Shown here piece after piece: positions 5,211-12,125 of a DNA stretch of 40,253 nt. The notes beneath the pieces are model-generated. The model did no database searches. It worked only from the letters and a program-made list of their open reading frames with translations, and was not told where the DNA came from. How positions within the stretch are numbered: position 1 is the first letter of the stretch; each line of letters opens with the position of its first letter. Location of the stretch: NCBI GenBank assembly GCA_024277855.1, contig JAJRUJ010000062.1, positions 1 through 40,253 of the forward strand. Reading direction: 5' to 3'. This DNA is from Candidatus Zixiibacteriota bacterium. Its GTDB lineage: Bacteria; Zixibacteria; MSB-5A5; WJJR01; JAJRUJ01. The position numbers were made by a program, and so were the translations under genes.

Positions 5211-6839
5211 ATGACGACGCATATTCCGTTCACCCGGCTGCCCGGACGCAGTCGATTATTTCTGGATTACCTTTACGATACCCAGCATATTGGGGCATTT
5301 TTTGCCTGGCCCTTTCGCACCGGGCGAGAGTTTGAATCCTGCGCGCGGCTGCTCGACAACCACACGATGGACCGGGAGGCCATTGGAGCAATCCTCCGAC
5401 GGCAAAATACATCGTTCGGCGCCGACAAGGCGACAATGCGCAACATCGACCGCCTGACAGCACCCAATGCGCTGACGGTTTTTACCGGCCAGCAAGTCGG
5501 GTTGTTTGGCGGACCGCTCTATACAATCTACAAAGCCCTCGGTGCCATTGGCTGGGCTGGGCGGCTGGAAAAACAACTCGGCCGTCCGGTAATACCGGTA
5601 TTTTGGCTGGCCGCCGATGACCACGATTTTACCGAGGTTGGCTGGACGGCATTTCCCAATACCGAAAATCGACCCCAACGGATAACGTACGAACCTGATA
5701 AAATCCCCGAGCGTATCCCGACTACGCAGATCATTCTCGACGACAACATCGAAAAAGTCCATGCCCGCCGTCGCGACATGCGGATGGAAACCGAGTTTTC
5801 CGCCGAAGTCGACGCCGCACTGGCCGATTGTTATCGACCCGGCGTGTCGTTGGCCGATGCCTTCGGCAAGTGGATGACCCGGGTCTTGGCCGGGAAGGGA
5901 TTAGTATTGTTCTCGCCCGCAGACGCTGAAGCCAAACGGCTGGGGGCCGGATTATTCGAACGTGAACTCCGCTCACCTGAATGTACGGCCCAGGCGTTGG
6001 ACCTGGTCAATTTACGGGTGGTCGAATCGGGATATCATTTACAGGTTTCTCATCCGCCAAAAAACACTCATCTTTTTTACTTTAACGGCAAGCGAGTGCC
6101 GCTGGTGCGCACCACTGACGGCCGGTTGACCGACGGTGAGACCGAACAATCCACCGACGATTGGATCGAAATCCTGCGTGCCCATCCCGACCGATTCTCG
6201 CCGGGAGTTTTGTTCCGGCCGGTGTTGCAAAACTTTTTGTTTCCCAACATCGCCTATGTTGGCGGTCCCTCGGAGGTAACCTACTGGGCGCAGGCGCGGG
6301 CGTTGTTCGAGGTTTTCGGTGTGGTTCAACCGGTGGTTCTGCCTCGGCCGTTTGTCACCCTGGTCGAAAACAATAATCGCAAAGTCGTCGAGAGGCTGGA
6401 ACTGACGTTGCCTGATGTCCTTACCGATCCGGAGACGGTGGTCAACGTGGTGGCCCGCCGGACATTCAGCGCCGATTTGCAGGAGCTGTTCGCCAAATCG
6501 CGCGAGTGTTTGACCGAGCGTCTCGGCGAATTGGAAGACGCAGTCAAGGCCTTCGAGCCGACGTTGGAGAAGATATTCAAACAGGGCGCGGGTAAAATAT
6601 CCGCCGAACTGACAACATTGGAGAAGAAAGCCTTCCAGGCCCATAAACGCAAAAACGAGATCATCCGCCAACAGGTCTATAAAATCTCCGGACATCTGTT
6701 TCCGGAGAATAGTTTGCAGGAACGCGTTTTTGGTTTGCCGTATTATCTCAACAAATATGGCTTCCGGCTGGTCGATTATCTGGCCGAAAATCTTGAACTC
6801 GACGTGAACGATCACCAGTTATTGGAGATTGATCTCTAA
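5211..6839 (+). CDS. bshC: Bacillithiol biosynthesis cysteine-adding enzyme BshC
   Basis: Putative last enzyme of bacillithiol synthesis, joining cysteine to glucosaminyl-malate. The 542-residue length is typical. Conserved blocks seen are FTGQQVGLFGGPLYTIYKAL near residue 90, PVIPVFWLAADDHDFTEV near 125, a YVGGPSEVTYWAQ block near 350, and a C-terminal helical part (residues about 420-500) rich in Leu, Glu and Lys that fits the coiled coil of the B. subtilis BshC structure. The gene starts 29 bases after the RND pump and ends 6 bases before bshA, so it is in the same run of genes. Neighbouring bshA and bshB1 make the assignment firm. That BshC itself catalyses the cysteine ligation is accepted mainly from genetics in Bacillus. 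Confidence 0.95.
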   Translation: MTTHIPFTRLPGRSRLFLDYLYDTQHIGAFFAWPFRTGREFESCARLLDNHTMDREAIGAILRRQNTSFGADKATMRNIDRLTAPNALTVFTGQQVGLFGGPLYTIYKALGAIGWAGRLEKQLGRPVIPVFWLAADDHDFTEVGWTAFPNTENRPQRITYEPDKIPERIPTTQIILDDNIEKVHARRRDMRMETEFSAEVDAALADCYRPGVSLADAFGKWMTRVLAGKGLVLFSPADAEAKRLGAGLFERELRSPECTAQALDLVNLRVVESGYHLQVSHPPKNTHLFYFNGKRVPLVRTTDGRLTDGETEQSTDDWIEILRAHPDRFSPGVLFRPVLQNFLFPNIAYVGGPSEVTYWAQARALFEVFGVVQPVVLPRPFVTLVENNNRKVVERLELTLPDVLTDPETVVNVVARRTFSADLQELFAKSRECLTERLGELEDAVKAFEPTLEKIFKQGAGKISAELTTLEKKAFQAHKRKNEIIRQQVYKISGHLFPENSLQERVFGLPYYLNKYGFRLVDYLAENLELDVNDHQLLEIDL

Positions 6840-6845
6840 ACTGTC

Positions 6846-7958
6846 ATGAAAATCGGGATTACTTGTTATCCGGTGCCGGGCGGTTCCGGCGTTCTGGCCA
6901 CGGAGCTGGGCCACCAGTTGGCCAAACGCGGGCACGAGGTGCATTTTATCAGTCACGCACTGCCGTATCGGCTCGACGAGTTCGCGACAAATATTTACTA
7001 CCATGAAGTCCAGGTTTCGACATATCCTTTGTTCGATTATCCGCCCTACACGCTCTCGCTGGCCTCGCGAATGTGCGAAGTAGCGCGGCAGGTCGGGCTG
7101 GATGTGCTGCATGTCCATTATGCCATTCCCTTCGCCGTTGCCGGGCATCTGGCACAGGGGATGATGGGCGACCGGGCGCCAAAACTGGTGACAACTTTGC
7201 ACGGCACCGATATCACGCTGGTCGGCGCGGATAAATCTTTTTTTGAAATCACCAAATATTCGATTGATATTTCCGACCGGGTGACCGCGGTCTCCAATTA
7301 TCTCGCAACAAAGACCAGGGTGGAGTTCGGTACCCAACGGCCGATTGATGTCGTGCATAATTTCGTCGACACGACGCGGTTTTACCCGCAAGAGGCCCAC
7401 GCCTGCCGCAGTGACCTCGCGCCGAATGGTGAGAAGATCGTGATGCACCTTTCGAATTTCCGGCCGGTAAAAAATATCACCGGCGTGATCCAGATGTTTC
7501 ACCGGCTCACCGAAGATGTCCCGGCGACACTACTCCTGGTCGGTGACGGACCGGAGAGCGGCGCGGCGATGACCCTGGCCCAAAAACTCGGGATCGGCGA
7601 GCGGGTGCGATTCATGGGTAATCAACAGCGGGTGGAAAATCTGTTTTCCTGTGCCGATGTGTTCCTGCTGCCGTCATATTATGAAAGTTTCGGGTTGGCG
7701 GCGCTGGAGGCGATGGCCTGCGGGGTGCCGGTGGTAGCGGCCGACGTCGGTGGGGTTTCCGAAGTGATCGAAAACGGGGTGAACGGGTATTTGGTCGGGC
7801 CGGACGATTATGACGGCGGCGGTGAAAAACTCAAAATGCTGGCCACCGATGATTCCTTGCATGAATCGTTTAAGAATGCGGCCCTGGCAACGGTCAAAAA
7901 TAAATTCACCGCTGAACATATTGTCCCATTGTATGAGAAGGTTTATTTGGCCGGATAG
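6846..7958 (+). CDS. bshA: N-acetyl-alpha-D-glucosaminyl L-malate synthase BshA
   Basis: First enzyme of bacillithiol synthesis: a GT-B fold, family GT4 glycosyltransferase that moves GlcNAc from UDP-GlcNAc to L-malate. The N-terminus MKIGITCYPVPGGSGVLATELG is diagnostic for BshA, as is the HALPYRL segment. The acceptor-side sequence DVLHVHYAIPFAVAG and TTLHGTDITLVG lie in the N-terminal domain. The C-terminal donor-binding domain contains the GT4 E-x7-E region ESFGLAALEAMACGVPVVA with GGVSEVIENG after it. Length (370 residues) is normal. It is preceded by bshC (6-base gap) and followed by bshB1 (18-base gap), which supports co-transcription of all three. Confidence 0.96.
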   Translation: MKIGITCYPVPGGSGVLATELGHQLAKRGHEVHFISHALPYRLDEFATNIYYHEVQVSTYPLFDYPPYTLSLASRMCEVARQVGLDVLHVHYAIPFAVAGHLAQGMMGDRAPKLVTTLHGTDITLVGADKSFFEITKYSIDISDRVTAVSNYLATKTRVEFGTQRPIDVVHNFVDTTRFYPQEAHACRSDLAPNGEKIVMHLSNFRPVKNITGVIQMFHRLTEDVPATLLLVGDGPESGAAMTLAQKLGIGERVRFMGNQQRVENLFSCADVFLLPSYYESFGLAALEAMACGVPVVAADVGGVSEVIENGVNGYLVGPDDYDGGGEKLKMLATDDSLHESFKNAALATVKNKFTAEHIVPLYEKVYLAG

Positions 7959-7976
7959 GATGCAGACGAGTTAATC

Positions 7977-8693
7977 ATGGCCGAACAACTTGATGCATTA
8001 TTCATCGCCGCCCATCGCGACGACACCGAGATCGTTTGCGGCGGAACGGTAATTAAAATGACCGACGCCGGTCATCGCGTGGGGTTGCTCGACTTGACTG
8101 CCGGGGAACTGGGTACGCGCGGCACGGCGGCCAACCGGGAAGCCGAGGCGGCGGCGGCGGCGAAGATCATGGGGTTGTCCGCGCGAATCAATCTCGGCTT
8201 ACCGGATGCCGGTTTACGCAATATTCCGGAATATCAAAATAAGATTGTCAGAATCATTCGCGAATATAAACCGACAATGATTGTCCTGCCTTACTGGCAA
8301 CAGCGGCATCCCGACCATCGCGAGGCAGGCAAACTGGGGTATGACGCCTGCTACCTGGCCGGGCTGCAAAAATACGACGCTCCCGGCGAACCGCACCGCC
8401 CGCGCAAGATTTTGTATTCCTCCAATCTGCGCGATGTCCGGCACAGTTTTGTCGTCGATGTCACCGACCAGTTCGAGCGCAAACTCGAGGCCGTCGCGGC
8501 CTACAAATCGCAATTCGGCACCCGGGACGGCGCGCGGGAGATATTCAACCCCGGCGTGGATATTTATGAATTCATGAAGACCTCGGCCAACTATCTGGGT
8601 AACCAGATCGGGGTTAAATATGCCGAGGGATTCACAGTCAAGGACTACCTGATCATCGACGATCCGCTTGGGCTTGCCGGACAATCGATTTGA
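7977..8693 (+). CDS. bshB1: Bacillithiol biosynthesis deacetylase BshB1 (LmbE/PIG-L family)
   Basis: Zinc-dependent deacetylase that should remove the acetyl group from GlcNAc-malate, the second step of bacillithiol synthesis. The 238-residue protein has the LmbE/PIG-L fold motifs: AHRDDTEIVCGGT at residues 12-24 with the metal/catalytic His13, Asp15 and Asp16, the LTAGELGTRGT segment near 40 that is typical of the BshB1 subgroup, and the second metal motif RHPDHREA near residue 110. Proline of the usual HPDD motif is replaced by arginine (HRDD), which is unusual. The gene lies 18 bases after bshA and ends 5 bases before the -35 box of the tRNA-Sec promoter. A related mycothiol-S-conjugate amidase role is less likely given the neighbours. 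Confidence 0.93.
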   Translation: MAEQLDALFIAAHRDDTEIVCGGTVIKMTDAGHRVGLLDLTAGELGTRGTAANREAEAAAAAKIMGLSARINLGLPDAGLRNIPEYQNKIVRIIREYKPTMIVLPYWQQRHPDHREAGKLGYDACYLAGLQKYDAPGEPHRPRKILYSSNLRDVRHSFVVDVTDQFERKLEAVAAYKSQFGTRDGAREIFNPGVDIYEFMKTSANYLGNQIGVKYAEGFTVKDYLIIDDPLGLAGQSI

Positions 8694-8698
8694 GGCGG

Positions 8699-8727
8699 TT
8701 GCCTGTTTCCTCAGGATAGACTATACT
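8699..8727 (+). promoter_or_regulatory. Sigma-70-type promoter of the selenocysteine tRNA
   Basis: A -35 box TTGCCT (8699-8704) and a -10 box TATACT (8722-8727) are separated by exactly 17 bases. The box set begins 5 bases after the bshB1 stop. Counting seven bases on from the last -10 base places the predicted start at 8734, the first G of the mature tRNA, so there may be no 5' leader. The spacing and near-consensus -10 are seen directly; activity is inferred. Confidence 0.75.
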
Positions 8728-8733
8728 ATCGCC

Positions 8734-8828
8734 GGAAGCGGATTCGGTCTGGTGGCCGGCGCGGACTTCAAATCCGTAGGCGGGCAGCCAAGGGTTGTCT
8801 GCGGAGGGTTCGATTCCCTCCCCTTCCG
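8734..8828 (+). tRNA. selC: Selenocysteine tRNA, anticodon UCA
   Basis: The 95-base gene begins GGAAG and ends CTTCC followed by discriminator G, like E. coli selC; CCA is not encoded. The anticodon TCA (8768-8770) lies in the loop CTTCAAA. The D stem has six pairs (8744-8749 with 8754-8759) and a four-base TGGT loop, a hallmark of tRNA-Sec. A long variable arm of about nine pairs (with wobbles) spans roughly 8780-8802. The T arm is GAGGG, TTCGATT, CCCTC. Oddity: the 3' acceptor strand is one base short, so the acceptor/T helix has 12 rather than 13 positions, with C8739 facing C8822 or bulged. selA starts 26 bases downstream and selB follows, which confirms identity. Confidence 0.96.
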
Positions 8829-8854
8829 CTTATTTTTCTGGACGGACAAAGACA

Positions 8855-10216
8855 ATGAACGATGCCAACGAACAATTGCGCCGGCTTCCCTCGGTGGAAA
8901 TTTTGACCAGCCATCCGGCGTTACGCGCCGCCGCCGAGGCATTCTCCAAACCACTCTTAGTTGATGCCGCCCGGGAAATCCTCGACGGCGTGCGGGCTGC
9001 CGTAGTTGGTGGGGGAGAAGTCCCTCCCGACAACGAATTGATTGGTTTGATTACCGCGTTGCTCCCCGTGAAATTCGGCGAAAACCTTCAGCACGTGATC
9101 AATGCCACCGGCGTTTTGGTGCATACCAATCTTGGCCGCGCGCCGCTGGCCGACGAGGCGGTGACCCCGCCGGGATACAGCAACCTGGAGTTCGATCTTC
9201 CCGCCGGCAAGCGCGGAAAACGGGGACGGCTCGTCGATGCGATGATCGCCCGGTTGGCCGGGGCCGAGGGGGCGCTGGTTGTCAACAACAATGCCGCGGC
9301 GGTTTATCTGGTCCTGACCTCATTGGCAGCAGGTAAAGAGGTCATCATCTCGCGCGGTGAGTTGGTGCAAATCGGCGGCGGGTTCCGCATTCCCGATATC
9401 CTCGAACGCTCCAGTGCGAAACTCAAAGAAGTCGGCGCGACCAATAAGACCACCCCCGACGATTACCGCAACGCGATCAACGAAAACACCGCCTTGATCC
9501 TCAAGGTCCATCGCAGCAATTTCAAGATGACCGGCTTTGTTGCCGAGGCGGGCCTGGCCGATCTGGCCCCGATTGCCAAAGAACATAATCTCCCGCTGGT
9601 GATGGACCTCGGCTCGGGCGCGGTTTCTGATGTTCGCCCATACGGTTTGCCAAAAGAACCAATGATGGCCGATTGCATCAGAGACGGTGCCGAGTTAGTA
9701 ACCGCCTCGGGCGACAAGCTTTTCGGCGGGCCGCAAGCCGGGATGATCGCCGGGAAGAAGGACCTGGTCGAAAAGCTGCGTTCCGACCCGTTTTATCGCG
9801 CATTGCGGCCCGACAAAACCACGCTGGCGGCGCTGGCTTATACCGCACGGGCGCATTTGGACGGCACTGCCGAACAACAGCTGCCGATGTACCGCATGTT
9901 GGCCTTTGGGCTGGACAAGCTGCGGATTCGAGCCGAGGCGATGATGAAAACGCTGTACGAGGCGGATGTTAGTTGCCGAGTGATTCAGACCGGGGCCAAA
10001 GTCGGCGGTGGTTCGTTGCCCGAGGAGGAGTTCCCGTCGGTTGGGCTGGAGATTACCTCGGAGATGAAAGCCGGTGAGCTTGCCGCAAAACTGCGGGCGA
10101 ACAACCCGCCGATAATCGGAATGATTGTCGAGGACCGGTTCCGCCTCGATCTGCGGACAGTCACGCCCGAACAAGACGCGACGATAACCATGGCGCTGGC
10201 CAACGCCCACGCCTGA
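8855..10216 (+). CDS. selA: L-seryl-tRNA(Sec) selenium transferase SelA
   Basis: PLP enzyme that converts Ser-tRNA(Sec) to Sec-tRNA(Sec) using selenophosphate. The 453-residue protein has the family order: an N-terminal helical domain beginning LRRLPSVEILT, then VINATGVLVHTNLGRAPL near residue 85-100, the cofactor region VVNNNAAAVYLVL, EVGATNKT, MDLGSGA, and SGDKLFGGPQAG where Lys288 should bind PLP. The frame is open further upstream into the tRNA gene, but the ATG chosen aligns with the usual SelA N-terminus and avoids that overlap. It follows tRNA-Sec by 26 bases and precedes selB by 31, a standard selC-selA-selB order. Translation probably uses the GGACGGACAA region, a weak ribosome site. 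Confidence 0.97.
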   Translation: MNDANEQLRRLPSVEILTSHPALRAAAEAFSKPLLVDAAREILDGVRAAVVGGGEVPPDNELIGLITALLPVKFGENLQHVINATGVLVHTNLGRAPLADEAVTPPGYSNLEFDLPAGKRGKRGRLVDAMIARLAGAEGALVVNNNAAAVYLVLTSLAAGKEVIISRGELVQIGGGFRIPDILERSSAKLKEVGATNKTTPDDYRNAINENTALILKVHRSNFKMTGFVAEAGLADLAPIAKEHNLPLVMDLGSGAVSDVRPYGLPKEPMMADCIRDGAELVTASGDKLFGGPQAGMIAGKKDLVEKLRSDPFYRALRPDKTTLAALAYTARAHLDGTAEQQLPMYRMLAFGLDKLRIRAEAMMKTLYEADVSCRVIQTGAKVGGGSLPEEEFPSVGLEITSEMKAGELAAKLRANNPPIIGMIVEDRFRLDLRTVTPEQDATITMALANAHA

Positions 10217-10247: not shown

Positions 10248-12125
10248 ATGTTTGTACTGGGCACAGCCGGACATGTCGACCACGGGAAATCGGCGCTGGT
10301 CAAATCGCTGACCGGAATCGATCCCGACCGGCTGCCCGAGGAAAAGGCGCGCGGCCTGACGATTGACCTCGGATTTGCCTGGTACACGATGGCTGATGGC
10401 ACTTCGGTTGGAATTGTTGACGTTCCCGGCCACGAACGCTTTGTGAAAAACATGATCGCCGGAGTCGGCGCGATTGATTTTGTGATCTTCGTTATCGCCG
10501 CCGATGACGGCTGGATGCCGCAGTCGGCCGAACATCTGGATATCCTTCGCTTTCTCGGTGTGCAACACGGAATCATTGCCATCACCAAGACCGACCTGGT
10601 CGATCAGGACTGGCTCGAGTTGGTCATCGCTGACGTGCAGGAGAAAACCTCGGGCACATTTTTGGAAGGTGCCCCTGTCGTCCGCTTTTCGGCGATTACC
10701 GGTGACGGTCTGGACGACCTGAAAACCGCCATCGACACAATGGTAACCGATCTGCCGCAGCGTGAGGATATCGGGCGGCCGCGGCTTTATATCGACCGCG
10801 CGTTTACCATCGCAGGACGCGGGAGTGTGGTCACCGGAACACTCAGCGAAGGGCCGTTGAAAATCGGGCAGGAAATTTCGGTGGTGCCGTCGGGGCTGAA
10901 AGGCCGCGTCCGTGAATTGCAGTCGCACAAACAAAAAGTCGAATCGGTCGGTCCCGGGCGGCGGGTGGCGGTGAATATTTCCGGTATTGAACGCAGCGAC
11001 CTCTCACGCGGTGAATGCCTGGTCGAAACCTCCGATGCGCAGACATACTCATTTGTGCTGGTCCAACTCACCTTGCTGGAAGAATCACATTGGTCGATTA
11101 AAACCGGCCGGTCGTTGCTTGCGCTTTTGGGCACCGCCGAGCCGGAGGCGGTCTGCCGGTTGCTCGATTCCGATGAAATTAAACCCGGCGAGTCGGGGAT
11201 TTGCGAACTGCGGCTCGAAACACCGGTCAAGGCGCGGCTGGGTGACCGGTTCGTCCTGCGCCTGCCGACCCCGGGAGTGACCATTGGTGGGGGGCGGGTG
11301 CTCGATTTTCCGACCCATCGCGTGACTCGCTCTGATGTCGACTATCTCACACTGTTGAATAAGCGACGTGAGGATTTCACCCTGTCGACTGTCCTCGGTA
11401 CCGAGATAATTAAACTGGGCTGGCTGCCCAAATCGGCCAAACTGCCCGACCTTCCGTTCTCCGATAAGGCAATCAAAACCCAGATCGCCGCATTCATCGA
11501 TTCGGGGAAATGGACCAAACTGCCCGACGGGTATCTCGACACCACGCAAGCTGAAACGTATCGCGAACGCGCGCTGGCCTTGCTTGCAAAACGTCACACC
11601 GACCTCCCGTTTGAATATGGCTATAACGAGGCCGAGTGGCGGGGCAAGCTGAAGATTTCAGAATCTTTGTTTAAGACCCTCCTGAATTCTTGGCTGAGAG
11701 ACAAGATTGTTTCCGTTCGTGGCGGGCGCTATCAACTCCCCGATTTTGAGCCGGGTGTACCCCAGGAGTGGCAGGCCGAGGCCGATGTCCTCGAAAAAAT
11801 GATCGCCCACGGCAAGATGCTGCCGCCCGTACGTTCGGAGTTGGAAAGCAAAAGTAAAAATGCCCCGAAAATCATCAACCTCTGGCTCTCGATGAACAAA
11901 CTGGTGGGGTTACCCGAGGGCATCGTTTATCCCCAAGAGACCTTCGGTCAGATCGTTGAGAAAATCAAAGCGCACTGCAAGGCCCACGAGACCATCACCG
12001 TTGCGCAGGTGCGCGATATGCTCGGCACTACCCGCAAATATACCGTTCCGATCCTCACCCACACCGATGATCTCGGCCTGACCCGGCGCGAGGGAGATTT
12101 CCGCCGCTGGATCGGTGAGGACTAA
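10248..12125 (+). CDS. selB: Selenocysteine-specific elongation factor SelB
   Basis: GTPase that brings Sec-tRNA(Sec) to UGA codons marked by a SECIS hairpin. The N-terminal G domain has GTAGHVDHGKSALVKSLTG (P-loop), DVPGHERFVKNM (G3) and the TKTD motif (G4). The region around residues 180-270 is the EF-Tu-like domain 2 (RAFTIAGRGSVVTGTL), followed by domain 3. From about residue 370 the protein carries winged-helix repeats of the bacterial SelB C-terminus; the last one ends TTRKYTVPILTHTDDLGLTRREGDFR, which fits the SECIS-binding fourth winged helix. Length of 625 residues is normal. The protein being complete suggests that true selenoproteins exist elsewhere in the genome; none is visible here. 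Confidence 0.97.
   Translation: MFVLGTAGHVDHGKSALVKSLTGIDPDRLPEEKARGLTIDLGFAWYTMADGTSVGIVDVPGHERFVKNMIAGVGAIDFVIFVIAADDGWMPQSAEHLDILRFLGVQHGIIAITKTDLVDQDWLELVIADVQEKTSGTFLEGAPVVRFSAITGDGLDDLKTAIDTMVTDLPQREDIGRPRLYIDRAFTIAGRGSVVTGTLSEGPLKIGQEISVVPSGLKGRVRELQSHKQKVESVGPGRRVAVNISGIERSDLSRGECLVETSDAQTYSFVLVQLTLLEESHWSIKTGRSLLALLGTAEPEAVCRLLDSDEIKPGESGICELRLETPVKARLGDRFVLRLPTPGVTIGGGRVLDFPTHRVTRSDVDYLTLLNKRREDFTLSTVLGTEIIKLGWLPKSAKLPDLPFSDKAIKTQIAAFIDSGKWTKLPDGYLDTTQAETYRERALALLAKRHTDLPFEYGYNEAEWRGKLKISESLFKTLLNSWLRDKIVSVRGGRYQLPDFEPGVPQEWQAEADVLEKMIAHGKMLPPVRSELESKSKNAPKIINLWLSMNKLVGLPEGIVYPQETFGQIVEKIKAHCKAHETITVAQVRDMLGTTRKYTVPILTHTDDLGLTRREGDFRRWIGED

Follow-up and report, generated by a model that had tools for sequence, protein, structure and literature searches.

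The window, the whole stretch of 40,253 nucleotides that was analysed, carries bshC-bshA-bshB1, selC, selA and selB in this order on the same strand, so that a full bacillithiol gene set (5211-8693) adjoins the selenocysteine genes. The last bsh gene, bshB1 (7977-8693, plus strand; TIGR04001, 255.5 bits), ends 5 nt upstream of a -35 box TTGCCT (8699-8704, plus strand), which is followed after a 17 bp spacer by a -10 box TATACT (8722-8727, plus strand) and a 6-nt discriminator ATCGCC (8728-8733, plus strand), whose final CC would serve as initiator pyrimidines. The tRNA-Sec gene selC (8734-8828, plus strand) then begins at G1 (8734), the predicted transcription start, and ends at the discriminator base G73 (8828) with no encoded CCA. 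A T-rich trailer, CTTATTTTTC (8829-8838, plus strand), lies immediately 3′ of G73, selA (8855-10216, plus strand; TIGR00474, 524.6 bits) begins 26 nt past the tRNA, and selB (10248-12125, plus strand; TIGR00475, 335.3 bits) follows.

The identity of selC was established by a match to Rfam RF01852 at 8734-8827 (66.9 bits against a gathering score of 47) and by ARAGORN, which recovered a UCA anticodon (tca). ARAGORN places the 5′ end at 8733, one base before the Rfam start, as a pair between C8733 and the discriminator G is possible; in relatives the tRNA invariably begins GGAAG, which favours 8734 as G1. The original prediction of the two boxes, their 17-base spacing and a tRNA start at 8734 is thus upheld by the sequence, the Rfam match and the relatives.

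All 83 tRNA-Sec genes of the phylum that were compared have an 8-nt 5′ strand facing a 12-nt 3′ strand, and seven acceptor pairs form only when nucleotide 6, which is never G in the 83 genes, is bulged. The acceptor/T stem is therefore not the canonical bacterial 8/5 (13-bp) stem; in 83/83 genes it is a bulged 12-bp stem of the 7/5 type, a minor bacterial type already known from other bacteria (Secmarker study, PMC5330540). Nucleotide -1 is able to pair with G73 in 79/83 genes. A different pairing preferred by an RNA folding program uses the trailer and was set aside, as it requires a C at the variable position 6 and is not conserved. Downstream, T makes up 54-73% at +2 to +8 past G73 in relatives. 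Many other tRNA genes (in genomes G000, G073 and G060) likewise have no encoded CCA and a T-run right after the discriminator, with no separate hairpin; the acceptor stem of such CCA-less tRNAs could perhaps itself serve as a terminator.

Conservation of the selC promoter across the phylum

The selC promoter site scored 11.3 bits under a standard sigma70 weight matrix, a value reached at 2 of the ~80,000 positions on both strands of the window, and its hexamers lie within the 16-18 bp separation of sigma70-type promoters and are conserved. A pattern scanner over 6 kb returned 5 promoter sites versus 2.5 expected, which is weak evidence alone; the decisive evidence for the promoter is its conservation in relatives. 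An RF01852 search of these relatives, all of the same class or nearer, covered a phylum of 132 genomes, 105 of them with tRNA-Sec. One further 56-bit RF01852 match, in genome G012, was left out, as it lacks a UCA anticodon and the gene downstream of it encodes a TonB receptor. At L092 (2501-2592, minus strand), the 56-bit RF01852 match has GCA at the anticodon position and precedes a BtuB-like TonB receptor gene; ARAGORN found no tRNA within these coordinates, and the match is probably another leader RNA.

When 84 tRNA-Sec genes with their flanks were stacked on G1 without gaps, the only strong upstream signals were TTG at -35 to -33 and TATAAT at -12 to -7. Position -1 was C or T, and positions -60 to -36 were almost without information. 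Since conservation does not extend to the spacer or to the flanks of the boxes, it is selection rather than recent descent that keeps the boxes. A promoter matrix untrained on these genes placed the best site exactly 6 nt from G1 in 54 of 82 genes, and scores of at least 7 at -12 occurred in 63% of tRNA-Sec genes versus 0.28% at random upstream positions.

Sigma-dependent initiation favours a position 7 bp downstream of the -10 box and a purine that follows a pyrimidine and precedes a G (PMC5730371), and the C-1 G1 G2 of selC satisfies all of these preferences. We predicted starts from the same rules (7 bp from the -10 box, purine start, preceding pyrimidine; PMC5730371), with rule weights that were a simple choice of our own. 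The predicted start was G1 in 60 of the 71 tRNA-Sec genes with a clear promoter, including all strong genes of families f1, f2, f3, f4, f6, f8, f10, f11, f12, f15, f17 and f19 and 8 of 9 strong genes of f18. In families with a near promoter, 57/68 genes (84%) have pyrimidines at both -2 and -1, versus only 2/15 tRNA-Sec genes with a moved or lost promoter and 39/147 other tRNAs. This pair was used in place of the -1 pyrimidine alone, which 78% of other tRNAs also have. The 5′ ends of RNase P RNA genes proved unusable for calibrating start positions, as the start of the Rfam match does not coincide with that of transcription.

The original prediction implied a constant -10-to-G1 distance in relatives. 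This holds within both the family and the order of the organism, as well as in 13 of the 17 families with a clear promoter, and it fails in others: the promoter lies 9-11 nt from G1 in f9, f14 and f16, for which leaders of 2-5 nt are predicted (for one f16 member, the -10 box alone gave a distance of 14 nt), and the near promoter is absent in f5, f7 and f13. In f5, the predicted start is 16 nt upstream of G1, or there is none. In f13, the tRNA-Sec gene abuts bshB1 and has no promoter of its own, and the bsh transcript is the probable source of its tRNA-Sec. On sequence comparison, these exceptional families act as controls, with the initiator pyrimidines disappearing together with the spacing. 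The -10 box is 11 nt away in all four f14 genes (L072, L049, L079 and L076); the sequence directly before GGAAG is GGAA, a duplication of the tRNA start, in L072, L079 and L076, and GGAT in L049.

Other tRNAs and RNase P RNA in the same genomes

For comparison, we collected 147 other tRNAs from four genomes (33 from the organism itself, 44 from G060, 37 of 44 from G073 and 33 of 45 from G003), of which 85 have a strong promoter. Strong promoters lie at exactly 6 nt in 52 of 70 tRNA-Sec genes versus 1 of these 85 (p=1.7e-24), and in the organism's own genome the start was predicted on the first base in 0/20 other tRNAs. The possibility that all tRNAs of the phylum are leaderless was rejected, as other tRNAs have variable promoter distances. 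In a set of 58 tRNA-Leu and tRNA-Ser genes drawn from numerous relatives, 40 have strong promoters, and for 9 of these the predicted start is the first base or the next one; the inspected genes of this kind were tRNA-Ser of f2, f5 and their near kin, which are a candidate second leaderless tRNA. In the tRNA-Ser(cga/tga) genes at L123, L127, L131, L141, L145, L164, L172, L178 and L180, TATATT precedes the first base by 5-7 nt. A layout predicting a G1 start is typical of tRNA-Sec and common to some tRNA-Ser, and is not a property of tRNAs generally.

RNase P RNA was found in the organism's own genome (311 bits) and in 50 of 58 relatives, so a leaderless tRNA-Sec would be a one-tRNA exception. 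The Nanoarchaeum equitans pattern, with every tRNA leaderless and no RNase P, is not what these genomes contain.

Comparison with other bacteria gave no fixed position of the -10 box relative to G1 in 31 tRNA-Sec genes of the Acidobacteriota group, in which single genes have a near box. A SelA scan of genome contigs returned only three loci, of Acidobacteriota type. None of the plasmid selC genes was usable as a promoter comparison, and in two annotated records selC lies just after or overlaps selB.

Alternative origins of the tRNA-Sec 5′ end

In one alternative, which we consider improbable, tRNA-Sec would mostly be cut from a bsh-selC-selA readthrough transcript, with the near promoter playing a minor part. 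It gains from the closeness of bshB1 to the -35 box with no strong terminator, from the promoterless f13 gene abutting bshB1, and from the widespread bsh-selC synteny. Against this, the promoter is kept at its fixed spacing whichever gene lies upstream, also where the bsh genes are distant or on the opposite strand, and a promoter so maintained without bsh neighbours is under selection. The original claim that tRNA-Sec supply is uncoupled from the bsh genes nevertheless does not follow, given that there is no convincing terminator, that the order bshA-bshB1-selC is kept in many relatives and that f13 has no selC promoter. Any readthrough from bsh would add leader-bearing copies of tRNA-Sec that require RNase P.

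It is quite improbable that the promoter is real and transcription starts a few bases upstream of G1, leaving a very short leader for RNase P to trim. The displaced families do predict leaders of this kind (2-5 nt), and the genome has the RNase P RNA for it. However, -1 is never G, pyrimidines prevail at -2/-1 in genes with the near promoter, positions -6 to -3 show no preference for a purine, and any start upstream of the 7-bp position would miss the modal distance (PMC5730371). Although 9/12 consensus matches alone are common, a chance match of the boxes in an AT-rich gap is refuted, with next to no probability left, by the rarity of the matrix score in the window, by its excess at -12 over random upstream positions and by a box fixed in dozens of genomes.

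Discussion

The above analyses make it very likely that selC is transcribed from its own housekeeping sigma promoter starting on G1, yielding a leaderless tRNA-Sec. The original prediction that +1 is G1 is strongly supported by the comparison of relatives, through the fixed spacing, the specificity for tRNA-Sec and the initiator pyrimidines. The start on G1 is a well-supported prediction that extends to most of the phylum. Behind it stand findings from sequence comparison: a promoter, a spacing held constant in most families, an occurrence limited to tRNA-Sec and some tRNA-Ser, matching pyrimidines at the initiator, and RNase P RNA encoded in these genomes. A -10 box held 6 nt before G1 would make RNA polymerase begin on G1, and the primary product would be pppGGAAG..., a tRNA-Sec with a 5′ triphosphate and no 5′ leader. 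Its 5′ end would be independent of RNase P, so that tRNA-Sec would need no 5′ processing, and the 3′ end would be freed by ordinary 3′ processing and completed by CCA addition. In some tRNA-Sec molecules, the start could be at G2.

As to the cause, accurate removal of a leader by RNase P would possibly be hindered by the bulge in the 12-bp acceptor/T stem and by the potential of -1 to pair with G73, and such inaccurate cleavage, arising from the bulge and the extendable stem, might favour starting on G1. Every member shares the bulge, whether or not its promoter is displaced, so the phylum offers no contrast by which to judge this cause. We advance only tentatively the wider reading that, phylum-wide, the positioning of the promoter has taken over the role of RNase P for one tRNA because RNase P acts poorly on the bulged stem, with its -1 able to pair with G73, and that this tRNA functions while bearing a 5′ triphosphate.

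Textbook accounts treat bacterial tRNAs as products of RNase P. In animals, tRNA-Sec is transcribed by RNA polymerase III from G1 and undergoes no 5′ trimming. The same tRNA and a predicted start on G1 without 5′ trimming recur here, with another polymerase and promoter, and the similarity would be convergent at most. Escherichia coli selC also has its own promoter-like TATAAT and a tRNA that begins GGAAG, but 31 nt separate the -10 box from G1, which leaves a leader to remove, and its tRNA is of the unbulged 8/5 type. Some Streptomyces tRNA genes reportedly start at the mature 5′ end, which limits any claim of novelty; the accessible portions of transcription maps of Streptomyces and Propionibacterium do not mention such starts. 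In the literature searched, leaderless tRNAs were found for Nanoarchaeum equitans alone, in which RNase P is missing (PMC10100707, PMC10941002), and the Secmarker study, in its available part, does not discuss leaders or bacterial promoters of tRNA-Sec (PMC5330540). Strict promoter placement in N. equitans causes transcription from tRNA position 1 and gives triphosphate tRNAs (PMC10100707), and the same determination of the start by promoter placement is predicted for this tRNA-Sec. In contrast to that archaeon, with archaeal promoters, all tRNAs leaderless and no RNase P, the phylum studied here is bacterial, with sigma70-type boxes, a single tRNA (and some tRNA-Ser) affected and RNase P RNA present.

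If the prediction is true, leaderless tRNA genes can evolve gene by gene while RNase P persists, in a manner that mirrors the reported mode of transcription of animal tRNA-Sec, and this phylum would offer a naturally occurring test of the substrates with which RNase P copes poorly.
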